From: Nitrospirota bacterium
GTDB taxonomy: Bacteria > NPL-UPA2 > JAADIA01
Length of the DNA: 14,153 bases
Direction: 5' to 3'
Assembly: GCA_013151555.1 (NCBI GenBank)
Contig: JAADIA010000089.1
Location: forward strand, 1-14,153
Position 1 is the first letter of the stretch. Each line of letters opens with the position of its first letter. Shown here piece by piece: positions 657 to 14,153 of the stretch. The notes beneath the pieces are model-generated. The model worked only from the letters and a program-made list of their open reading frames with translations. It did no database searches and was not told the origin of the DNA. The position numbers were made by a program, and so were the translations under genes.

Positions 657-887
657 AAATCCCCCTCCAACCAAAAAGTTTTTTACTTATTTCCTTCAAG
701 CAATTGTCTCACAAAGGCTTATGATGATAAAAATGTCTTCCCCCGGCGTGGTGTCCCCTCTCTTATTCGTCCAAATGTTTAAATAAACGAACGGCCGTCC
801 CTTAAATGTCGATATTTATCAACATTGCAGACCAGTATAAATTTAATAGGGACAGACACTATTTATTGACAATTTAGTAGGATCGGT

Positions 888-990
888 AAGGTTTAAGGTT
901 TAAAGTTTAAGGTTTAGGTTTAAAGTTGAAGAGATAAAAAGTTTAATAGGGGATGAGGGGGTAGGGGGTAGGGTTTAAGGTTTAAAGTTT
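888..990. repeat. Short-period GGTTTAA/AGTTTAA repeats
   Basis: From 888 to about 930 the sequence repeats AAGGTTTAAGGTTTAAAGTT-like heptamers with small variations, and the same pattern returns at 972-990. It is low-complexity and non-coding, with no gene in any frame. A similar TAAAGTTAAAG motif occurs at about 10449-10460. Origin and function are unknown. Confidence 0.6.
949..973 (+). other. G-quadruplex-forming motif
   Basis: Four G-tracts of 4, 5, 5 and 3 bases are separated by loops of 4, 2 and 2 bases on the plus strand. This fits the usual G3+N1-7 quadruplex rule. It lies between the two blocks of GGTTTAA repeats, outside any gene. The motif is visible in the sequence; a biological effect is not shown. 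Confidence 0.6.
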
Positions 991-1075: not shown

Positions 1076-1119
1076 GGCAGACTTGATGGGGGGGATTAAA
1101 TCGGGTCTGCCGTTTTTTT
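1076..1119. terminator. Terminator-like hairpin after the GH operon
   Basis: GGCAGAC (1076-1082) pairs with GTCTGCC (1105-1111) and is followed on the plus strand by G and seven T residues. On the minus strand it lies directly downstream of the stop codon of the last GH gene. There it is preceded by an A-run and followed by TCTTAATTATTT, so it could end transcription in both directions. The better U-tract is on the plus strand, where no gene is known. Confidence 0.55.
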
Positions 1120-3325
1120 AGTAATATACTTCGTAGTATTGAACGGTGCTTCCGGAATCTTCGGCTTCGAAATGTATTTTTCCTTTTAGTTGGGTGAATG
1201 GTATTTCTTGATTTTCTTCTTTGTTCCAGAATATTTTGAGGACTTTTTCTGCCGTTCTGCCGGGGGGGAGGGGGAGGACGATGTCGATATCTTTTATGGC
1301 TGTTACTAAGGCTTTTTCTTCGGAATAGGCGGCAAGGGCGGAGTTGCCGGAGAGGCCGAGGCAGGAATAGAATCCTTTTAACTTGCCGGTCTTGTATTTT
1401 CGAAAGAAAATTTGCCGGAAGGGGTCGATGAAGACTTCATGGTGAGGATTGAGGGGTGAGTGAAGGTATACTTTCAGAATGGCGCTGACCCTTTTGTATT
1501 CTTCATCGGAGATGGAGACGGGGTTGCCGCCGTTGGGGATGTCTTTTATCGTTAAGGCGCGATATTTTATTCCGTATAATGAGGGAATGGAATAGATGGC
1601 TTTGTTGAGGGTAAGCCGGTAAAAGTATTCTTTAAATGAACGCCAGTCATCTCCTTCGAGGACGGGGGCGCCGGAGACGTTGGCGGCCCAGGCGCGAATG
1701 TCGTAATGGTAAAGGTTGTCCGAAGTGGCATCGTTGAGCCGGCAGACGTCGGCGATGTCTTTGAACATCGGGTTTGCCGGACCGGCTTCGATGAAGGCGT
1801 CTTTCTTGAACGATTTTGCCGTGTCGTTGATAAATTTCTGGGTTTTATATTGGTAAACTTCTCCGCCTCCCCAGGATTTGTCGAAATAGATGCTCTCTAT
1901 TGTGGGGGCGTTAAAAGGCACGTCGAATTTAAGCCCGTCGGCATTGAGGCAACCGGGGTCGCCGGAGAGCATGAAATGGAGGCGTTCCCGGAAATATTCC
2001 CGGGTGGCGGGGTTGGTAAAGTCCGGGTAGCCGGCTTCCATGCCCAGCCATAAGGTCCGGGTAGATAGGGCGTCGGCGTCTTTTTTCACGAGGAGGTCCT
2101 TTTTTTGAAAAAGTTTCGAACCTTCTTCTACGAGCTGGGGAGCAAACCATAAGAGCACGTGAAATCCTTCCGAGTGGAGCCTGTCAATCAGGGCTCGCAG
2201 GTCCGGATACAAATCCGGGCGGGGGTTCCAGTCACCCATATAGTCGGCCCATCCATAGTCAATGGTAATCGTTCCTAAAGGCAGGTCTTTCTCTTTGATA
2301 ATTCCGATGAGTTCGTTGAGGTAGGTCTCGTTGTTGTATTCAGCGGAAAGACGGACATGAGCTTTAAACTTCCGGTCAATAACTTTTCGGTATTGGAGGT
2401 CCGCCCAGTTGCAATATATGGGTTTGCTCCACCAGTCGAACCAGATTTTCTGTTCTTTAACGAGACCGGCTTCTTCCAGTCTTTCTTTGTATGATTCCAT
2501 TATCCGGTCTTTGCTCTTTTCGAAAAGGAAGGCCAGACGGGGACAGGCGCAGGGGGTCCGGGAGGAAGCTTGCAGGCAGCCGCCGAAGGTATAAGGAAGG
2601 AGGATTTCGTGCCGGCTTATTTCGACTTCTAACCCGTGATTTGCGTTGGGCATTTCTATGGTTCCCATGCCGAACCAATCACCGCCGTTGCGTATGGCGA
2701 TTACATAGCTTGCGATGAGCGGTTTTCCCGGGTAATTTATGTAAAAGTAACTCTGGTCTCTGTCTTTTCCTTCATATCTCTCTTCGCTGAATGCCGATGC
2801 GCCCAGGCCGACCAGGGCGGTGTTGAATTCACTGGTTAAGAGCTGGAGCCCGTCCGGGGACCAATGGAACAATTCTTCAAAGTTGCCTTTGGATTTATGG
2901 ATTTGATTGTTTTCCAGAGTCCCGCCGTAGTAGGCGTCATATAACATTTGCGGGGATGAGTCCCTGCCGGTGACCTGCAAAAAATAGGTAAAATGTTCCG
3001 GGAAGAATTCCATTACGGCTTTTTTCTCCGGCCATATCCCGGTTGAACTTTTCATGATAATTTCTACCAGAATATTTTCTTTCAGCTTTTTATGGGAGAC
3101 CGAGGAGTAGGTGTAGGTGCCTCCTTCGGGGAGGGGGGTGGTCCCGCCGTTGCCCGCCGGCCGGACGGTGCCGTTTATCTTAAAGTTAAGAAATTCCCGG
3201 GTGGTGCCGGTCTTTTTCACCTTTGCTATGAGGTTCGGGCAGTCGATATTTACGGAATACCCGGGGGCAATAATCTCTAAGATGTTGTCGGCGGAGGATA
3301 GTTTGATTTCTTGAGATGGTTTCAT
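1118..3325 (-). CDS. GH36-like clan GH-D glycoside hydrolase (paralogue 3 of the divergent family)
   Basis: This 735-residue protein has no signal peptide and is predicted cytoplasmic. An N-terminal beta-rich domain (about 1-300) is followed by a (beta/alpha)8 barrel (about 300-600) and a C-terminal beta domain containing LKGFYSCLGLSG. Barrel landmarks are WFDWWSKPIYC (295-305), the ITIDYGW strand with D356, FAPQ after LLW, the probable nucleophile D468 in NADGLKFD, and the probable acid/base D532 in CRLND (RxxD, as in GH36); D536 in the following SDN is an alternative. These fit an alpha-galactosidase-like retaining hydrolase; the true substrate is unknown. The ATG at 3325 overlaps the stop of the preceding GH gene by 4 bp (ATGA) and has GGAG at 3337-3334 with an 8-nt spacing, implying translational coupling. 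It is the last gene of the operon, followed by a hairpin. Confidence 0.8.
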   Translation of the reverse strand: MKPSQEIKLSSADNILEIIAPGYSVNIDCPNLIAKVKKTGTTREFLNFKINGTVRPAGNGGTTPLPEGGTYTYSSVSHKKLKENILVEIIMKSSTGIWPEKKAVMEFFPEHFTYFLQVTGRDSSPQMLYDAYYGGTLENNQIHKSKGNFEELFHWSPDGLQLLTSEFNTALVGLGASAFSEERYEGKDRDQSYFYINYPGKPLIASYVIAIRNGGDWFGMGTIEMPNANHGLEVEISRHEILLPYTFGGCLQASSRTPCACPRLAFLFEKSKDRIMESYKERLEEAGLVKEQKIWFDWWSKPIYCNWADLQYRKVIDRKFKAHVRLSAEYNNETYLNELIGIIKEKDLPLGTITIDYGWADYMGDWNPRPDLYPDLRALIDRLHSEGFHVLLWFAPQLVEEGSKLFQKKDLLVKKDADALSTRTLWLGMEAGYPDFTNPATREYFRERLHFMLSGDPGCLNADGLKFDVPFNAPTIESIYFDKSWGGGEVYQYKTQKFINDTAKSFKKDAFIEAGPANPMFKDIADVCRLNDATSDNLYHYDIRAWAANVSGAPVLEGDDWRSFKEYFYRLTLNKAIYSIPSLYGIKYRALTIKDIPNGGNPVSISDEEYKRVSAILKVYLHSPLNPHHEVFIDPFRQIFFRKYKTGKLKGFYSCLGLSGNSALAAYSEEKALVTAIKDIDIVLPLPPGRTAEKVLKIFWNKEENQEIPFTQLKGKIHFEAEDSGSTVQYYEVYY

Positions 3326-5178
3326 GGCGTTTTCTCCAGTTCCACTATGCCTGCACTTGGAATGGGCAGAGAGGTTTTATCTTTCAGGGTTATTTCTCTC
3401 TCGTCTGTGAGGTCAAGGTAGTAATTAAATGTTTTCAGGTTGTATTTTGCTTCTTTGCCGGTCCGGATATATATCTCATCGTATTTTGTGCCGTTCATTA
3501 TGGTGAGGTGTTTTTTCAGTTTGATTTCTATTTCTCTTGATTCGTTAAGAAGGCTGTAGAGGGCTTCCGTTTCGTTTTCTATCTGCCAGGCGAAGAGCTC
3601 GCCGGTCTGGGGTTCGTAAATTCCGGTTTTAAATATCGGGAGATGTCTGGTATAAAATTTCAGCCAGCGTTTGAGTATCCGGCGGTGTCCTTCGGGGAGG
3701 GTTTTAAGGTCAACGGAAAATGTGGGTACGCCGAGGGTAATCATTTTCATGATTAAGATGGCAAGGTCTCTGTCTTCTTCGGCAATTGTCCAGGAGAGAT
3801 AATCGTTGTGCACAATGGGAACGAAGGCTCTCATATAAGCGAGGTTGTAGAAGTTGTTGATGTTATCGTAGGGGGAATCGCCGCCTCTGACCATAGAACC
3901 GTACTGGGCGGACCTCATGTTCCCGTAGTTTACTTTGATTTCCATAAGGGCTGAGGGTCGGTAGGATTTCATATCTTCCCAGAGCTCTTTCATTAACCGC
4001 ATAATCCCCCTGGTGACGGTGGGACAGTCGTGGGCGTGTTCTCCCCGGCAGGGGGTGGCAGAGATGTTGTTATAGAGGTCTGCCTTGATTCCGTCGAATC
4101 CCAGATCGAGTAGTTTCCGGGTGGTCTTCAATATTATGGCTCTGGCTTCCGGAGAGGAGGGACAGAGGTTGTGGAACATGTTCGGTCCTATCCAGAGTCC
4201 TTCGTCTGTTTTCATGAGCAGGTGCTCGACATCTTTTTTAATCTTCGCATCGGGTGAGACGGCTAAGGGAGCTGTCCAGATGATGGGTTCTATGCCTAAC
4301 TCTTTAATCTTTTTCACCAGGCCTTTCATATCCGGGAATTTCCTGGGGTCGGGGTCGTAATCGCCGAGGGAGGACGCGGTTATTTCGCTGTCGCATCCCG
4401 GTCCGAACCAGCCGTCGTCAATCATTAAAGATTTTATCCCCAGTTCTTTACATTGTTCCGCTTGCCGGAGGATAAGGTCAGCGGTTAAGTCATCGGAATT
4501 CCAGGGTACCCATGAACACCAGGTGGGATTAAAGGCATTTTCCCGGATTTCAAATTCGGGTGGATGAAGGTTATAATATTCTTGGCCGTACTCTCTCAGG
4601 GCATGGAACCAGGTTTTGCTGCTTTCCGTTATATAAAGTGATTCCTGTAAGGCGGTGGTTTTCCCCATGCGGAAACCGTTTATCGGCCTCTCGAAATCGA
4701 AGATTAACCGGCCGTCAAAAACCGCCAGGGTATTTTTTGAGGTCCGGCCGGGAGAGGAGATGGTAAAGGAAGTCTCTATGGGTTCTCCGATGATTCCTAC
4801 GGCGAGGTTTACTTCATTAAAATGGTTCAGGAAAGCTACAAAAGGCGTACCATGGTTACCGTTTACCATTACCCGGGACTTTCCCCAGGATAGTAAGGGG
4901 ATAAAGTATCGGTGGTAGTATCTTCCGCAGTCGGGGACGATCAATTTTGAGAAGTTTTTCAGGTTGGCACAAAAACTATATTTCAGGGATTGAATCTCAA
5001 ATTCGGAATTGTCTTCTTTTTGAAGGTTAAGGTCTAAAACGGTTCCGGCTTTTATTTGGAGACGGAAATCCCCGCAGGAATAGTTACCCGTTTTTAGTTC
5101 CAGGTCGGGGAATGTTATTTCAACTCCGTCAATTTCGGCAGTGATGCTGAAGCGTTTCAGGTAATTGCTGTAACTCAT
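3322..5178 (-). CDS. GH36-family alpha-galactosidase-like enzyme
   Basis: This 618-residue protein lacks a signal peptide. An N-terminal beta domain (about 1-210) is followed by a catalytic barrel opening with TWCSWVPWNSDD (219-230). It shows the clan GH-D hallmarks: MIDDGWF (D254/D255), GDYDPDPRKFPD, the nucleophile D367 in FDGIKAD, and the acid/base D434 in the RxxD motif RGGDSPYD. By family knowledge it should release terminal alpha-galactosyl (or related) residues with retention of configuration. The start is well defined, with AGGAGGT at 5191-5185 six bases before the ATG, the best ribosome-binding site of the operon. The gene is 52 bp downstream of the second GH gene and overlaps the fourth by 4 bp. 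It is the most canonical member and clearly different from the other three, which resemble each other more. The specific substrate cannot be assigned. Confidence 0.85.
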   Translation of the reverse strand: MSYSNYLKRFSITAEIDGVEITFPDLELKTGNYSCGDFRLQIKAGTVLDLNLQKEDNSEFEIQSLKYSFCANLKNFSKLIVPDCGRYYHRYFIPLLSWGKSRVMVNGNHGTPFVAFLNHFNEVNLAVGIIGEPIETSFTISSPGRTSKNTLAVFDGRLIFDFERPINGFRMGKTTALQESLYITESSKTWFHALREYGQEYYNLHPPEFEIRENAFNPTWCSWVPWNSDDLTADLILRQAEQCKELGIKSLMIDDGWFGPGCDSEITASSLGDYDPDPRKFPDMKGLVKKIKELGIEPIIWTAPLAVSPDAKIKKDVEHLLMKTDEGLWIGPNMFHNLCPSSPEARAIILKTTRKLLDLGFDGIKADLYNNISATPCRGEHAHDCPTVTRGIMRLMKELWEDMKSYRPSALMEIKVNYGNMRSAQYGSMVRGGDSPYDNINNFYNLAYMRAFVPIVHNDYLSWTIAEEDRDLAILIMKMITLGVPTFSVDLKTLPEGHRRILKRWLKFYTRHLPIFKTGIYEPQTGELFAWQIENETEALYSLLNESREIEIKLKKHLTIMNGTKYDEIYIRTGKEAKYNLKTFNYYLDLTDEREITLKDKTSLPIPSAGIVELEKTP

Positions 5179-5230: not shown

Positions 5231-7228
5231 TTATGATGAATAATTTATCCGGTAATTTCTGACGTTACCCCGGGAACTTTCCAGTTTAAGTAAAATTTTC
5301 TCTCCGGGAACATAAGCAAAGGGGATGTTCGTTTCTTTGCCGTTTCTCGTTATCTTTACGACGGCAGTGATTTTTTTGCCCGGGGGGATGGCAATAACTG
5401 CTTTTGTGTTGTTTGAGGAACATAACAGCGCTGAGTCGTTTTCATACGCTACCAGCACCTCTGAACCTGAAGAGAGGGTGGCGGAATAGAAGCCTTTCAG
5501 GGGGCCGGACTTGTTTTTCCTGTAAAAAATTTTATCTTCGTTTTCGCAATAGATAAGGTCGTCTATATCCAGCCGGGAATGCCGGTAAACCGAAAAAATG
5601 GAGTTAATGAGGTTAGCTTCTTCCCGGGTCATATCCAGAGGATAACCGGCGGTAAAGGTTTTAGATTTTATCCGGGTTGCGGCTCTGCGGATTACGGCGG
5701 AGAGGGAGGGGACTCCATAGATGCATTTCTCCATTAAGTGGGGGCCGGTATGCGCGGTAAACCCTGAGGATTCGTCAATGTACAAGGGGTTTATGCCTAA
5801 CTCCAGGCCGGTCTGGGCTCTGCGACCGTAATCGTCTACCGATTCGTCATAGAAATGTCTGTTTCCGAGCGATTGAACGTCACAGACATCGCTGAAGAGG
5901 GGATTCAGGGAGGGAAGAATAACCAGGCCGGTTCGTTTTAGCTGCTTGACGGTCTGAAAAATAAATTCCAGGACCTGCTTTTGCATTACTTCTCCCAGTC
6001 CCCAGGAAGGTTGGAAATAAAGGGCGTTCACCGGGGGGAGAGCAGAGGTTTGTTCAAGTTTTATGCCTTCGATGTTCAACTCTTTAAATAAGTAGGACAG
6101 GTTCTTGCTTAGATATGCTCTTGTGCCGGGGTTTGTATAATCAAACCGGGCGTAATCTTTGTTCTGTTCGAAGTAATGGTACGCGAGGATCTCTTTTCCT
6201 GATTCCGTGTGCACGAAATAGTCGGGGTTGTTCTTGTAGACGCGGGAATCTTTATCGGCGAGATAAGGATGAAAAGAGAAAATAATCCGGTATCCTTTGG
6301 CCTGGTATCGTTTCACGGCTTTGAGAAGGTCGGGTTTGATGTTGAAATCGCCTTGTTTTAAGGACCAGCCCATGCCGATGACTATGGTTCTCAGGTTGAA
6401 TTTATTCTTCTCTATGTTTCGTACGGCTTTGCTGAGGAGAGAACCGGTGCATTTTTCCCGGGCTCCATATTCGCAATTTGACTCGCCTTCTTTTTGCATA
6501 AGCTCAAAAACCTGGTCGAAGTAAGTGTCATACCAGGGCTCGTTCCACCAGGCTGCCAGGGGATACTTTTTTTGCCGGAGCCGGACTTTACGTCTGTAGG
6601 CTGAAGCAATGGCTTCCCGGCTTTCGGAGAAGAAGATACCTAACCTGAGCGAGGCGCCGGTGTTCCGGTTGAAAAGGGAATGAAGTTTCAGCGTTTTCTG
6701 AGTAAGTTCTCCGGAAAGAGCATACTCGCTTTCGGGGGGTTCCAGGCAGCCTATACCAAATATTGTGTTTCCGGTATTTACGGCTAACAGATATGGGGGG
6801 ATAACAAACTTTCCTGCATAAGTAGGAAATATCCCTTCTTTGAACGGAGACCGGGAGCCTATACGGAAGTTGATGGGCACATGTTTGGGAACGGCGCAGG
6901 TGTAGGTTACCGGAGTCCAGTTGTAAAATTCCCGGAAGTTGCCGCTGAGCCGGCCGGGAAAGGTGAGCTTGTTCCCGGAGGAGACTATGACTAATTCCAC
7001 GAAACTCTTTTTAAAGTTAAACCGGAGGTGCTGTTTGCCGTTGCGGCATTTTAGTTGGAAGGAGTTATCTTTCTCCCCGAGTTCCAGAGTCACGGAGCGG
7101 TTAAAGGTAATCTCGAAATGCCGGTATTTGCCGGAATAGAAAGTTAACCGTTTCTCCCGGGGATTGATTACGGCATTATAACGGGTCCCTTGATAATGTT
7201 TAAGGTTGTTGTCGGTCTTATTACTCAT
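5231..7228 (-). CDS. GH36-like paralogue with degenerate active site (probable pseudoenzyme)
   Basis: From the ATG at 7228 the protein has 665 residues. The frame is open upstream to an ATG at 7306 (691 residues), but 7228 overlaps the upstream stop as ATGAGTAA, a typical coupling arrangement, and gives an N-terminus like the paralogues. No strong ribosome-binding site is seen at either. It shares with its two paralogues the WW-P-Y segment, PSWGLGEV, DVC, YGVPS and the C-terminal GPLKGFYS. In 691-residue numbering, all three acidic active-site positions differ: IDYGW is VIGMGW (D to G311), GIKLD/GLKFD is GIKLE (nucleophile D to E418), and RLND/RLHD is DVQS (R to D476, acid/base D to S479). 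The frame is intact, so it is not simply decayed. It may be a non-catalytic binding or partner subunit, or an enzyme with an altered mechanism. Confidence 0.75.
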   Translation of the reverse strand: MSNKTDNNLKHYQGTRYNAVINPREKRLTFYSGKYRHFEITFNRSVTLELGEKDNSFQLKCRNGKQHLRFNFKKSFVELVIVSSGNKLTFPGRLSGNFREFYNWTPVTYTCAVPKHVPINFRIGSRSPFKEGIFPTYAGKFVIPPYLLAVNTGNTIFGIGCLEPPESEYALSGELTQKTLKLHSLFNRNTGASLRLGIFFSESREAIASAYRRKVRLRQKKYPLAAWWNEPWYDTYFDQVFELMQKEGESNCEYGAREKCTGSLLSKAVRNIEKNKFNLRTIVIGMGWSLKQGDFNIKPDLLKAVKRYQAKGYRIIFSFHPYLADKDSRVYKNNPDYFVHTESGKEILAYHYFEQNKDYARFDYTNPGTRAYLSKNLSYLFKELNIEGIKLEQTSALPPVNALYFQPSWGLGEVMQKQVLEFIFQTVKQLKRTGLVILPSLNPLFSDVCDVQSLGNRHFYDESVDDYGRRAQTGLELGINPLYIDESSGFTAHTGPHLMEKCIYGVPSLSAVIRRAATRIKSKTFTAGYPLDMTREEANLINSIFSVYRHSRLDIDDLIYCENEDKIFYRKNKSGPLKGFYSATLSSGSEVLVAYENDSALLCSSNNTKAVIAIPPGKKITAVVKITRNGKETNIPFAYVPGEKILLKLESSRGNVRNYRINYSS

Positions 7229-9395
7229 TGTTTTTTCTTTCGAATTCAATTTCATAGTTGATGATGGCCCGGGAACATTTTTTGGCAAAAAAGACAAGGT
7301 CGTCATTTACCCTGGCAAACTTCACTTTTGTTTTTGTTCCGTCTTCTCCAACGGCAAATATTTTTTCTTTTCCGCTTTCGGGAGGCAGGGGCAGGACTAT
7401 ATCCGTATCGGCGAGGGCGGATAACTTTATGAGGCCGTCTCTGTAGGAAGCGACGGCCTGGTTCCCGGATAAGGTGAGGGCGGAATAGAAACCTTTGAGG
7501 GGGCCGGTTTTGTAGGTGCGGGAAAAGATTTTCCTTTCCAGGTCAATAAAAATTTTATGGTTTGGGTTCACCGGGGAATGAAGATAAACGTTGAATAGGG
7601 ACCGGAGCAAGCGGTGGTTTTCTTCACTTATGTATTCTGCTGTCTGGTCCATGTCTCCCCGGTAGTTGAGGGCATAGATTGCCGGAATCCCGTACACTAT
7701 CTTGCGCAGTTGGCCGCGGACCATAAATTTTCGGAAAGAGAACCAGTCGTCGGTGTCCATGTAGGGGGTTCGGCATTTTACGGCGGCAAAGGCCCGTTCG
7801 TCATAGCAGTTATTATCCATACTTGAGGCGTCGTGAAGCCGGTGTTGGTCAAGGGTGGAGTTGAACATGGGGTTTCCTCCGGTAGCATTGACCAGGGCTG
7901 CGGATTCAACTTTTTTTACTTCCCCATAGACAAATTTCATCAGTCTTTTCATAAGCAGTTCGCCCGTCCCGTAGTGGGGATTGCGCACGGGAGTCTTTAC
8001 GGTATAAAGCTGATGGGTGCAGTCAAGCTTGATGCCGTCGGCGTTCAGACATCCCGGTTTATCGGAGAGTATGAATTCCAGGTTCTTTTTAATATGTTTC
8101 CTGACCCCTTCAATAGTTACATCGGAAAAGGTGATGTCGGTCTTGAATCTTTTCCAGATGAACGTCTTGCCGGCAGGAGTTTTGATCATCCAGCCGGGGT
8201 GTTCCCGGAAGAACTTTGAGCGGGTATCTACGTAAAAGGGGTTGTACCAGAGTAATACTTTCAGGCCTTGTTTTTGCAGGTCGTTAATGATTTTCCTGAG
8301 GTCCGGGAATCTAAGGGGGTGAGGATCCCAGTCGCCCATGAAGTGGAACCAACCGTAGTCTATGATCAGTATCCGGTATTTGATTTTAAGTTTTTTCATG
8401 GCCTGGATGCGTTCCATCATAAATTTCTGGGTGCACCAGTTGGGGGTCATCTCGGGTTCCGGTTTTGTCGGGGTTTTCCGTTCGAGGAATTGTTTGAAGA
8501 ACTGGTCGGAGAAAAAGCAGAAAATCGGGCCGCTCCACCAATCTTCCCATTGTTGCTGGGAGGGTTCACCTTTGCCTGTCTCATAGAGGATATCTATATA
8601 TTTTTCGATAACGGTATCTTTATCTTTTGCCGTAAGGAAGGCAATTTCCGGACAGCGGTAAGTTTGTCCCGGAGGGACGGTTATGGAGCCGTTATAGTCG
8701 AAGAGAATCTCTGTTTGAGTCTTGTTGATTATCAGGTGCAGCCCGGCATCTGCCGGGGGAATCTCGAGGGTGCCGATGCCGAACCATTTGCTGCCTGTGC
8801 GGAGTGATACGGCATAGGGGGGGATGAGAACTTTCCCGCCCGGGGTCTGAAAATATTCATCTTTTAATTTTTCTCCGCCCGGGGCCGGGGAGCGGGAAGT
8901 CAGCTTAAAGTCTGCTCTGCCTTTTTCCGGAATATTCGACCGGTACATCCAGGGGTTTAAAGTGTAGGCTTCGTTTATGGAGGTCCGGCTCGGTTCTGCA
9001 AGGCCTTCGTTACCCAGGGCCGTGCCGTAATTGATGTCGGCTATGGTTACTTTCCGGGAACCGGCAGTCACTTTCTGGAAATAAGTAAAATATTCTTCTT
9101 TAAAGCAGAGGACGATTTCTTTGTTTTTCCAAAGAGAGTTCTTGCCGGACATCTTCACGGAAAGCAGGTAACGGTCCTTTTTCCGGTGAAGAGAATGAGA
9201 ATTATACTGCAATGCCGTATCGTAAAGGATGCTGCCTTTGGTTTTTCCCAGGCCCCGGACCGAGCCGTTGAGGTAGAAGTCTATAAGGTTAGTGGTTCCT
9301 TGTTTCAGTTTCACTCTGAGGTTTTTCAGGTCGACTTCGGCAAAATATTTCTTTGCCGTAATGGATATCCCGGTTTTATTTGTTTTCGCTTTCAT
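7221..9395 (-). CDS. GH36-like clan GH-D glycoside hydrolase (first gene of the cassette)
   Basis: The ATG at 9395 gives 724 residues. The frame extends to a GTG at 9461 (746 residues), but those extra codons cross a GC-rich hairpin and are absent from the paralogues, so the ATG is preferred; neither has a clear ribosome-binding site. No signal peptide is seen. In 746-residue numbering the landmarks are WEDWWSGPIFC (305-315), LIIDYGW with D368, GDWDPHPLRFPD, LLWYNPF, the probable nucleophile D480 in NADGIKLD, and the probable acid/base D544 in HRLHD. The C-terminal beta domain carries GPLKGFYSALTLSG and DIVLPLPP. It is a close structural match to the last gene of the operon and, apart from the catalytic residues, to the second. 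A retaining alpha-galactosidase-like activity is expected from GH36 membership; the substrate is unknown. Its stop overlaps the next start by 8 bp. Confidence 0.8.
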   Translation of the reverse strand: MKAKTNKTGISITAKKYFAEVDLKNLRVKLKQGTTNLIDFYLNGSVRGLGKTKGSILYDTALQYNSHSLHRKKDRYLLSVKMSGKNSLWKNKEIVLCFKEEYFTYFQKVTAGSRKVTIADINYGTALGNEGLAEPSRTSINEAYTLNPWMYRSNIPEKGRADFKLTSRSPAPGGEKLKDEYFQTPGGKVLIPPYAVSLRTGSKWFGIGTLEIPPADAGLHLIINKTQTEILFDYNGSITVPPGQTYRCPEIAFLTAKDKDTVIEKYIDILYETGKGEPSQQQWEDWWSGPIFCFFSDQFFKQFLERKTPTKPEPEMTPNWCTQKFMMERIQAMKKLKIKYRILIIDYGWFHFMGDWDPHPLRFPDLRKIINDLQKQGLKVLLWYNPFYVDTRSKFFREHPGWMIKTPAGKTFIWKRFKTDITFSDVTIEGVRKHIKKNLEFILSDKPGCLNADGIKLDCTHQLYTVKTPVRNPHYGTGELLMKRLMKFVYGEVKKVESAALVNATGGNPMFNSTLDQHRLHDASSMDNNCYDERAFAAVKCRTPYMDTDDWFSFRKFMVRGQLRKIVYGIPAIYALNYRGDMDQTAEYISEENHRLLRSLFNVYLHSPVNPNHKIFIDLERKIFSRTYKTGPLKGFYSALTLSGNQAVASYRDGLIKLSALADTDIVLPLPPESGKEKIFAVGEDGTKTKVKFARVNDDLVFFAKKCSRAIINYEIEFERKNNE

Positions 9396-10625: not shown

Positions 10626-11561
10626 ATGGCAAAAAGGTATCTTCTGGTCTTTATTTCTTTTCTGATTTTCCTTTCTCCGGTTCAGGCGAAGATAGTAGAT
10701 AAAATTGTGGCGATAGTTGATGGAGATGTCATTACCCTGAGCGAATTGGAGGAGTTCATGGGTCCCGGGCGAACTCAGATGGAAGGAGTAGATGTAAAGA
10801 TAGGGAGCAAAGATGCCCGCCAGCGGGCTTTAGAGCAATTAATCGAGAGAAAGGTGCTTATCCATGAGGCTAAGGATAAAGATATAGAAATAAGAGAGGA
10901 GAGAATAGACCGGCGGATTAAGGAAATCAAGGGAAGGTTCGCTTCTGAGGATGAATTCCGTCAGGCCCTTCAGGATGAAGGGCTTACGGAAGCAAAATTG
11001 AGGAAGAGAATCGAGGAAAACCTTATGGTGGCGGTGCTTATTGATAGAGAAATTAAATCTAAAATCCGGGTAGGGGAAGAGGAGGTCCGGAAGTTTTATG
11101 AGGAAAACAAGGAGAAGTTTAAAGAGCCGGGGGAGGTTGAGATAAGCCAGATCTTCCTTGAGGTAAATAAAGAAGAAGGCTGGGGAGAGAGTGAGAGGAA
11201 AGGCAAGGATTTGCTGAAACAGTTGAAAGAGGGAGCGGACTTTTCCCTTTTAGCTAAGGAATATTCCCGGGGCCTCAATGCTGCCAAAGGAGGAAAGTTA
11301 GGATTTCTTACCCTGGGAGAACTGAGTCCGGAGTTTGAGAAAGCTGTCTCCGGGTTAAAGGTAGGAGAGGTTAGCGATTTGATCAGGATGGGGGATGGAT
11401 TCCATATTATCAAGTTAGAAGGGCGGAAAGCTGCCCGGCAGATGGAGCTGGCGGAGGTAAAGGATAGAATTGAGGCTATTATTTTTGCGGATAAGGCGGA
11501 AAAGAAATATCGGGAATGGATAGAGAAGCTTAAGAAGAAGGCCTATATAGATATTAGGTAA
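10626..11561 (+). CDS. surA: SurA-like periplasmic chaperone/peptidyl-prolyl isomerase
   Basis: This 311-residue protein has a signal peptide at 1-21 (MAKRY, a hydrophobic stretch, ending SPVQA). A SurA-type N-terminal chaperone domain follows (IVDKIVAIVDGDVITLSELEE at 23-43, then long charged helices). One parvulin domain lies at about 170-267, recognised by EISQIFLEV, ADFSLLAKEYS, GGKLGF (222-227), LSPEFEKAV and DGFHIIKLEGR. A C-terminal helix completes the chaperone module. It should help outer-membrane proteins fold in the periplasm, implying a diderm cell. E. coli SurA is longer and has two parvulin domains; this one has one, so PpiC/PrsA-like naming is also possible. AGAGG at 10614-10618 supports the ATG at 10626. 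ksgA follows after 105 bp, an order recalling surA-pdxA-ksgA. Confidence 0.88.
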   Translation: MAKRYLLVFISFLIFLSPVQAKIVDKIVAIVDGDVITLSELEEFMGPGRTQMEGVDVKIGSKDARQRALEQLIERKVLIHEAKDKDIEIREERIDRRIKEIKGRFASEDEFRQALQDEGLTEAKLRKRIEENLMVAVLIDREIKSKIRVGEEEVRKFYEENKEKFKEPGEVEISQIFLEVNKEEGWGESERKGKDLLKQLKEGADFSLLAKEYSRGLNAAKGGKLGFLTLGELSPEFEKAVSGLKVGEVSDLIRMGDGFHIIKLEGRKAARQMELAEVKDRIEAIIFADKAEKKYREWIEKLKKKAYIDIR

Positions 11562-11666
11562 ACTCTCACGAGAACTCTGAAAAGTCCGGAACCGGGTGGG
11601 AACGCTGACCGCGGGGCGTTTGGTTAACTTTTTTCGGGGTCTTTTTTTAAAGATAGATGGCGAAAG

Positions 11667-12584
11667 TTGGAAAAGCAAATCAGAAGTCTTTTAAGGAAAC
11701 ATGGAATCCGGTTAAGGAAGAGGTGGGGACAGAATTTCTTAAAGGATAAGGAGGTTCTGGAAAAGATAATCCAGGGGGCGGAGTTAAGTAAAAACGATCT
11801 GGTATTGGAGATTGGAGCGGGAACGGGTGTCTTAACGGAGAAGTTGGCGGAATCGGCTTTCAAGGTAATAGCGGTAGAATGGGATAAAAAACTCTGCGGT
11901 ATTCTAAGGGAGCGATTGGCGTCTTTTGATAATGTGGTTATCGTTCAAGATGACATCTTAAAGGTTGACCTGAGAGAAACTCTTCCGGTTTTTAACTGTC
12001 GGCCTCCGGATTCTTGCTCTATCAGGGTGGTTGGAAACCTTCCTTATTACATAACTACCCCTATTGTTTTTCATCTACTGAAGCAAAAGTCGTTGTTTAA
12101 TCTTTTTGTGATTATGGTACAGAGGGAAGTGGCGGAGAGGATGGCGGCGGTTCCGGGAAGTAAGGATTACGGGGTTTTGACTTTGGCTTGCCGGTATCAT
12201 GCGGAAGTGGAGATAATTGCTCAAGTAGGGAGAGAATCTTTCTTTCCTTCCCCCGGAGTTGATTCTGCTTTGGTAAGGATGAAGGTATTAAAGGAGCCGC
12301 GGGTAAAGGTTGAAGATGAGAAGGCTCTCTTTTCTTTAATTAAATCTTCTTTTGGACAGAGGCGGAAGACTCTGGAGAACGCTCTTCTTTCCGGTCGTTA
12401 TCTTGGTTTGAAGAGGGAGGAACTGCGGCGAACTCTGGAAGAGGCGGGAATTGAAGGAAGACGGCGGGGGGAGACGTTAAGTTTGGAGGAGTTTGCGAGA
12501 TTGAGTAATGTCTTGAACTATTTAAGAAATAAGGCACAAAGTGACAAAGGCACACAGGCACAAAGTGAAAATCGAAAGGAATAA
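11667..12584 (+). CDS. ksgA: 16S rRNA (adenine1518/1519-N6)-dimethyltransferase
   Basis: This 305-residue protein transfers four methyl groups from S-adenosylmethionine to two adjacent adenines in helix 45 of 16S rRNA during 30S maturation. Visible motifs, in order: GQNFL (21-25), the SAM-binding EIGAGTG (48-54), E71 at the end of strand beta-2, DDIL (95-98), the catalytic GNLPYYI (123-129), FFPSPGVDSA (192-201) and QRRKTL (231-236). The start is a TTG at 11667, chosen because it gives the usual lead-in to KRWGQNFL; the nearby ATG at 11657 is in another frame. The last 17 or so residues (AQSDKGTQAQSENRKE) are not typical of the family and are encoded by an intergenic-type tandem repeat, which appears to have replaced the original stop. 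Confidence 0.95.
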   Translation: MEKQIRSLLRKHGIRLRKRWGQNFLKDKEVLEKIIQGAELSKNDLVLEIGAGTGVLTEKLAESAFKVIAVEWDKKLCGILRERLASFDNVVIVQDDILKVDLRETLPVFNCRPPDSCSIRVVGNLPYYITTPIVFHLLKQKSLFNLFVIMVQREVAERMAAVPGSKDYGVLTLACRYHAEVEIIAQVGRESFFPSPGVDSALVRMKVLKEPRVKVEDEKALFSLIKSSFGQRRKTLENALLSGRYLGLKREELRRTLEEAGIEGRRRGETLSLEEFARLSNVLNYLRNKAQSDKGTQAQSENRKE

Positions 12585-12606
12585 AATAAGCTCAGTACCT
12601 TTGTGC
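12533..12606. repeat. GGCACAAAGTGA repeats overlapping the ksgA 3' end
   Basis: GGCACAAAGTGA occurs at 12533-12544 and 12558-12569 with a CAAAGGCACACA-like unit between them. CCTTTGTGC at 12598-12606 is an inverted partial copy of the same core. The first copies lie inside the ksgA reading frame, the inverted one in the gap to gatC. It looks like a short mobile or expanding intergenic repeat. A separate perfect hairpin, CATGCC-GAA-GGCATG, lies at 12618-12632. Confidence 0.6.
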
Positions 12607-12659
12607 TTATTATGTCCATGCCGAAGGCATGCTAATCGGCTTTCAGCGGGGGAATGAAG

Positions 12660-12947
12660 ATGAAGATCAGTAAGGATGATGTGAAGCAGGTGGCCAGGTT
12701 GGCGCGTCTGCGTTTGACGGAGGAGGAGAAAGAGAAGTTTGGAAAGCAGCTCAATCAGATTCTTGCCTATGTGGAGAAGTTGAATGAGCTGAATATAGAA
12801 AATGTGGAACCAACTTCGCATGTAGTTCCTCTGACCAATGTCTTGCGGAAAGATGAGGTGAAACCTTCTCTGTCGGAGGAGGAAGCTTTAGCTAATGCTC
12901 CGGAGAGGAAGGGGAAGTATTTTAAGGTGCCTAAGATTATAGAATAG
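12660..12947 (+). CDS. gatC: Asp-tRNA(Asn)/Glu-tRNA(Gln) amidotransferase subunit C
   Basis: This small subunit (95 residues) of the GatCAB complex bridges GatA and GatB in the transamidation of misacylated Glu-tRNA(Gln) or Asp-tRNA(Asn). The typical GatC pattern is visible: MKISKDDVKQVARLARLRL at the start, then a helical segment with LNQILAYVEKLNEL, VEPTSHV and the late KYFKVPKIIE. An ATG at 12654 is also in frame (97 residues), but the GGGGGA at 12648-12653 abuts it, whereas the ATG at 12660 has a normal 7-nt spacing. No gatA or gatB follows; the next gene is purL, so the other subunits must be encoded elsewhere. Confidence 0.92.
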   Translation: MKISKDDVKQVARLARLRLTEEEKEKFGKQLNQILAYVEKLNELNIENVEPTSHVVPLTNVLRKDEVKPSLSEEEALANAPERKGKYFKVPKIIE

Positions 12948-12994
12948 GGCTTTGTCTGCTTAAAAGCTATCTTGATTCCGGCGATAAAGAATTG

Positions 12995-13131
12995 AATTCG
13001 AAATACGAAGCACGAAATACGAAACAATATCGAATGACCAAAATACAAATGACCGAAATACGAAGTTTTGAGAATTTGAACATCAGGATTTTGAATTTGT
13101 TTCGGATTTCGATATGCGGATTTAGGATTTA
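12995..13131. repeat. Long imperfect palindrome (MITE-like intergenic element)
   Basis: The left arm, about 13001-13035 (AAATACGAAGCACGAAATAC and on to CGAAACAAT), is matched in inverted orientation by the right arm, about 13091-13126 (TTGAATTTGTTTCGGATTTC and on to ATGCGGATTT). The spacer is AT-rich and contains near-direct copies of ATGACC-AAATAC (13034-13060). It fills most of the gatC-purL gap and has no coding capacity. Similar CGAAA-rich palindromes are, from memory, common between genes of uncultured bacteria, but no copy count is possible here. Confidence 0.6.
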
Positions 13132-13204
13132 TGAAAACGTTACTTATTTAATATAGCAGTATAGAATGCCATTGTCTGCTATCGCGGCAATATGGAGAAG
13201 AATA

Positions 13205-14153
13205 ATGGCGGTTAGGATTGAAGTGGGGTTTAAGGAAGGGGTCCGGGATGTTGCCGGGGAGGCTTTGAAGAGGAGAATCCTCGAGGATTTGGGGATAGAA
13301 GTCGATTCGGTAAGGATTGTTAATGGTTATACTATAGATAAAGAACTTTCTCCTGCTCAGGTGGAAGCTGTGCGGGGGGAGATATTCACCGACCCGATAA
13401 TTCAAGAATCTTCAACGGCTCCTTTGGCGGCTGCTTTCGATTGGATAGTGGAAGTAGGGTACTGGCCGGGGGTTACGGATAATACCGGGAGGACGTCTCT
13501 GGAGGCTATTGAGGATTTGCTGAAGATAAAGTTTGAGGCGGGAGAAGAGGTCTATGCTTCCCGGCAGTATCTCCTGAAGGGAAAAGTAAAGCGTGAGGAA
13601 GTTGAAGCTATTGCCCGGGGAATGTTGGCTAACGAAATCATCGAGAGATGGGAGATGAAGAGCTATAGCCAGTGGGATAAAGAGACCGGGATGGGGACCT
13701 ATATCCCTAAAGTAAAGTTGAATCATCAGCCGAAGGTGGAGGAGGTTGACTTAAATGTCTCTGATGAGGAATTGGCACGGATGGGGAGGGAAGGTGTCTT
13801 AGGGAAAGGTGAGAAGGAACGGAGGGGCCCCCTGGCTTTAAATTTAGAAGAAATGAAGACTATCAGAGATTATTTTAACCGGCCGGAGGTTATCGAGGAG
13901 AGGGAAAAGACCGGGTTGGGAAAGAACCCTACCGATGTGGAGTTGGAGTCTATTGCTCAGACCCAGTCTGAGCATTGTAAACATAAAATTTTCAATGGCT
14001 TGCTGGAGTACCGGGAAGAGGGACAGGAAGAGGTAATCGATTCTTTGTTTAAGACTTATATCAAGAGGGCCACGGATGAAATCCGCAAGAATTTGGGGAA
14101 GGAAGACTGGTGTGTTTCCGTCTTCGGGGATAATTCCGGGGTGGTGAAGTTAA
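13205..14153 (+). CDS. purL: Phosphoribosylformylglycinamidine synthase, PurS-PurL fusion, 5' part
   Basis: At least 316 codons are present and the gene runs off the right edge. It catalyses the ATP- and glutamine-dependent conversion of FGAR to FGAM in purine synthesis. GGAG at 13194-13197 lies 7 nt before the ATG. The N-terminal 150 or so residues hold two PurS-like halves, one starting RIEVGFKEGVRDVAGEAL and a second starting VEVGYWPGVTDNTGRTSLEA, so the PurS dimer seems built into the chain. The PurL part follows with a linker region (SDEELARMGREGVLG), NPTDVELESIAQTQSEHC, whose SEHC is a PurL hallmark, and FGDNSGVVKL. A glutamine amidotransferase (PurQ) partner is not visible in the window. 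Confidence 0.92.
   Translation, partial: MAVRIEVGFKEGVRDVAGEALKRRILEDLGIEVDSVRIVNGYTIDKELSPAQVEAVRGEIFTDPIIQESSTAPLAAAFDWIVEVGYWPGVTDNTGRTSLEAIEDLLKIKFEAGEEVYASRQYLLKGKVKREEVEAIARGMLANEIIERWEMKSYSQWDKETGMGTYIPKVKLNHQPKVEEVDLNVSDEELARMGREGVLGKGEKERRGPLALNLEEMKTIRDYFNRPEVIEEREKTGLGKNPTDVELESIAQTQSEHCKHKIFNGLLEYREEGQEEVIDSLFKTYIKRATDEIRKNLGKEDWCVSVFGDNSGVVKL

Follow-up and report, generated by a model that had tools for sequence, protein, structure and literature searches.

The second of four adjacent glycosidase-fold genes in a Nitrospirota genome encodes a protein, P0001, that has lost the canonical retaining machinery within an otherwise intact GH-D fold. This had been proposed in a first-pass annotation of the DNA and is borne out here by losses at conserved alignment columns, an AlphaFold model and structural matches. 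We regard it as a genuine and well-supported case of active-site loss in a paralogue that looks maintained, and P0001 probably binds or regulates instead of cutting.

The window, by which we mean the whole stretch of 14,153 nucleotides analysed, carries the genes on its minus strand between positions 1118 and 9395, in the order gene 1, 2, 3, 4 (Table 1). The overlap is 8 bases between genes 1 and 2 and 4 bases between genes 3 and 4, and an AGGAGG stands ahead of the gene 3 start; the four are apparently co-transcribed as one operon. The frame of gene 2 is intact, as first annotated, and it has three glycosidase-fold neighbours and not the two paralogues originally counted, the additional one being the more distant gene 3, whose acids are intact and whose motifs fall at matching places in a profile alignment. 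Searching the whole genome for Melibiase gave matches only at the four places of genes 1–4. Mis-binning of the contig was considered, but the genome's only strong ksgA match sits on it, and the contig therefore appears to belong in the genome. Downstream of the operon, window positions 885–990 hold three short direct repeats of the type GGTTTAAGGTTTAAAGTTT, with two GGGACTGTCCC motifs nearby. On the plus strand, a frame at 12658–12948 between ksgA and purL looks gatC-like (ISKDDVKQVARLARL...), judged from its translation by eye.

Table 1 Genes, active-site positions of P0001 and divergent relatives. Unless another locus is named, positions are those of the window.
Feature	Position	Strand	Description
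Gene 1 (P0002)	7221–9395	-	Catalytic positions all kept (IDYGW, GIKLD, RLHD); model pLDDT 89.8
Gene 2 (P0001)	5231–7228	-	Degenerate GH-D glycosidase paralogue; 665 aa (665 codons), open frame, PF01055 match, AlphaFold GH-D fold
Gene 3 (P0003)	3322–5178	-	More distant GH36-like (Melibiase) paralogue; acids kept (IDDGW, GIKAD, RGGD)
Gene 4 (P0004)	1118–3325	-	Catalytic positions all kept (IDYGW, GLKFD, RLND)
D234 (GAC)	6527–6529	-	New acid, for conserved Cys at strand 1 end
G285 (GGC)	6374–6376	-	For conserved Asp at barrel strand 2 end (ID..W); strand 281–284 in model
S318 (TCT)	6275–6277	-	For conserved Trp at strand 3 end (LLW to FSF)
K390	6059–6061	-	Conserved Lys of GxKxD, still present
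E392 (GAA)	6053–6055	-	For nucleophile Asp at strand 4 end (GxKxD); strand 388–391 in model
S453 (TCG)	5870–5872	-	For conserved Arg of RLND
N456 (AAC)	5861–5863	-	For acid/base Asp after strand 6 (RLND); strand 451–453 in model
Y483 (TAC)	5780–5782	-	For first Asp of strand-7 DxD; D485 kept
L056 (Planctomycetota)	L069:5958–8036 (G638:C181)		No other family member found in its genome
L009 (Planctomycetota)	L009:6566–8542		Strand-2 and strand-4 acids kept; RLCH at acid/base; GAGG for DxD

Both a MAFFT alignment and independent BLASTP comparisons showed that P0001 reads IGMGW where its paralogues have IDYGW, GIKLE where they have GIKLD or GLKFD, and SLGN where they have RLHD or RLND. The first-pass annotation was right about the first two of these changes, the strand-2 Asp to Gly and the nucleophile Asp to Glu. 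It had read the third as RxxD to DVQS, a register off by three, the last residue of DVQS being the first of the motif; both methods place S453-L-G-N456 there, and the acid/base Asp has thus become Asn and not Ser. Enzymes of this superfamily carry their nucleophile where strand 4 ends and their proton donor where strand 6 ends (PMC1249566). Active retaining GH31 and GH36 enzymes have Asp at both places, P0001 has E392 and N456, and we infer that it no longer carries out hydrolysis by the canonical mechanism. The substitutions C234D, W318S, D387E and D483Y also alter positions that 85% or more of the relatives conserve, indicating that the pocket has been remodelled beyond the three acids. In the AlphaFold model the changes gather where barrel strands 1, 2, 3, 4, 6 and 7 have their C-terminal ends, the region that holds the active site in this superfamily. 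W288 is kept alongside K390, and the acids left at barrel strand ends, in or near the pocket, are E392, D485/E486 and D234. A sequencing error was also considered and was rejected, as eight separate codons differ at conserved positions.

The losses stand out against a family set of 44 proteins, drawn from named genomes and from whole-genome searches across several phyla. D285, D392, R453 and D456 are all kept in 41 of the 43 relatives, and P0001 has none of the four. Among columns conserved at 85% or more, P0001 loses 14 of 35; P0002 and P0004 lose 5 of 34 each. One exception among the relatives, L056, has E, H, Y and E at the four positions (motifs LEQGY, FLAIH and YINE) and has lost GxK as well, a degeneration unlike that of P0001; the table also lists the partly changed L009. 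Relatives adjoin sugar-use genes: an alpha-L-rhamnosidase gene in Cohnella, a GH43 gene in a further Paenibacillaceae genome and, next to L056, solute-binding protein, BNR, URO-D and xylose-isomerase-like genes.

Consistent with an intact fold, the AlphaFold model of P0001, built from a 29-sequence alignment, has a pLDDT of 85.1 and a pTM of 0.90 and contains the N-terminal beta domain, (beta/alpha)8 barrel and C-terminal beta domain of the GH-D fold. The earlier view that the structure had been conserved around the altered acids thus holds for the fold as a whole, but the changes exceed those three acids, taking in C234D, W318S, D387E, R453S and D483Y as well. The model matches MYORG (GH31) with a Z-score of 25.8 and TmGalA (GH36) with 25.2. 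The P0002 model has the same structural neighbours, and VIA-align left GH31 and GH36 near-tied and not separated for both models. More broadly, the whole predicted fold resembles GH31 and GH36 structures (YicI, MYORG, TmGalA, TtGalA and the GH31 alpha-galactosidase 8j53) at Z-scores of about 22–26, with the D-x-x-W, GxKxD and RxxD positions alignable. P0001 differs from these enzymes in having no nucleophile, acid/base or strand-2 Asp, and identity in the structural alignments is about 10%. Against Pfam, P0001 scored 34.6 bits with the GH31 profile PF01055, above its cut-off of 23.5, and 18.5 bits with Melibiase (PF02065, GH36), below its cut-off of 27; the alignment members are themselves mixed, 18 of 29 matching PF01055 and 8 of 29 PF02065. 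The initial GH36 label is therefore too narrow, and we describe P0001 as a GH31/GH36-like member of clan GH-D.

Residue losses set against the 44-member family, the intact frame, the tight gene packing and the predicted intact fold are what the data show, and on them we read gene 2 as encoding a pseudo-glycosidase. We propose that gene 2 arose with genes 1 and 4 by gene triplication in this lineage, and that its product would have lost the retaining double-displacement machinery while staying folded and being made from the same operon. We infer, less firmly than the loss of canonical hydrolysis, that P0001 is a non-catalytic subunit for binding or regulation, which would most likely associate with the co-translated enzymes of genes 1 and 4; its remodelled pocket may bind a sugar, or nothing. 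Such a partnership is the most likely role for P0001, at about an even chance.

P0001 might instead still be an enzyme with a rebuilt active site, using E392 together with D485/E486 or D234, with an inverting or some other non-canonical mechanism or with a different substrate. Acids do remain at the ends of strands 1, 4 and 7, K390 and W288 are kept, and there are precedents: inverting GH97 enzymes have Gly for the strand-4 Asp and use Glu elsewhere (PMC2670981), and some GH32 enzymes with Glu in place of the Asp nucleophile are reported to be active (PMC1249566). However, P0001 lacks both the Arg and the Asp of RLND, along with the strand-2 Asp, the strand-3 Trp and the first Asp of DxD, and the acid/base loop is poorly modelled, with residues 458–460 scoring below 50. 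The strand-5 end of P0001 (GLVILPSLNPLFS), where GH97 puts its base, is without an acid, which weakens a GH97-like route. We therefore think continued catalysis unlikely, and the same doubt applies to the wider proposal that P0001 reacts through the rebuilt pocket (E392, D485/E486, D234) by a mechanism unseen elsewhere in clan GH-D, or that it and its paralogues make up an obligate hetero-oligomeric glycosidase.

It is comparably doubtful that P0001 is a free-standing cytoplasmic sensor or sugar-binding protein that makes no contact with its paralogues. In favour of it, the barrel is kept with its catalytic acids gone, and K390 and W288 are retained. In addition, the degenerate L056 is the sole member found in its genome, with no active paralogue found there, which argues against pairing with such a paralogue as a general rule. 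However, the substrate-binding residues D285, W318, R453 and D483 were lost when the acids were, which speaks against the ancestral ligand having simply been retained, and Pfam found no regulatory domain in P0001.

A 12-row tree joined P0001, P0002 and P0004 at 92/92, and the C-terminal domain of P0001 is 29–35% identical to the operon paralogues and 20–23% to outside relatives; judged from such sequence comparisons, an in-lineage triplication of genes 1, 2 and 4 is consistent with the data, though not decisively so. A larger tree left the order of the three unsettled, with a terminal branch of 2.09 for P0001 and 0.9–1.0 for its paralogues, and support in single-domain trees was too weak to place P0001. 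No orthologue of P0001 was found in 60 relatives, 8 of them from the same phylum, nor by single-protein searches of genome contigs or in plasmids, and the paralogues are saturated for dN/dS. When neutral drift was simulated from gene 4, the sequences had gained on average 19 stops, and never fewer than 13, by 50% identity; P0001, at about 27% identity, has no stop or frameshift, which points to selection during most of its evolution. Synonymous codon usage in gene 2 correlates with that of genes 1, 3 and 4 at r = 0.85–0.89. The correlation is only 0.24–0.48 with the opposite-strand genes surA, ksgA and purL (10626–14152), a contrast that strand bias or a horizontal origin could explain.

The suggestion that selection keeps gene 2 thus stands over the long term and indirectly, through the absence of stops, the neighbour-like codon usage and a frame kept unbroken down to about 27% identity. 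P0001 accordingly shows the features of a pseudoenzyme, its catalytic residues lost from an intact, folded and, on this indirect evidence, maintained protein. Plain decay of gene 2 is unlikely, and its recent form, in which selection has relaxed and stops have yet to accumulate, is the least probable of the alternatives: the terminal branch about twice as long as the paralogues' (expected also under relaxed constraint), the many conserved columns lost and the want of an orthologue showing conservation would fit it, but not the divergence reached with an unbroken frame, the codon usage or a structure predicted at pLDDT 85.

There are precedents for an enzyme that has been retired from catalysis and given another role. 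In GH97, nucleophile and mechanism have been swapped within the related alpha-galactosidase superfamily, and six outliers lacking both motif sets were suggested to be inactive (PMC2670981). P0001 resembles GH97 in belonging to a related superfamily and in having its strand-4 nucleophile lost or replaced; inverting GH97 members differ in using a strand-5 Glu and calcium-binding Glu residues. Dead paralogues activate a partner in the trypanosomatid AdoMetDC prozyme (PMC5201418) and in deoxyhypusine synthase (PMC3663545), which like P0001 involve a degenerate paralogue kept beside an active one, although these systems are eukaryotic with unrelated folds and the partnership shown there is only proposed here. 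Inactive glycosidase-fold proteins in GH18 and GH13, as cited in PMC2670981, likewise show the fold surviving catalytic loss, in other families and clans and with other described activities. We found no described bacterial GH-D pseudo-glycosidase in a limited literature library, which is weak evidence on this point.

With four adjacent GH-fold proteins, one of which has had its catalytic site replaced, this locus is a clean test case, in a GH31/GH36-like family with at least one other member that lost its site independently. The small operon bears on whether an inactive copy adjusts the activity of its active sisters, senses on their behalf or joins them in a complex, or on whether the GH-D fold supports a further mechanism, as in GH97.
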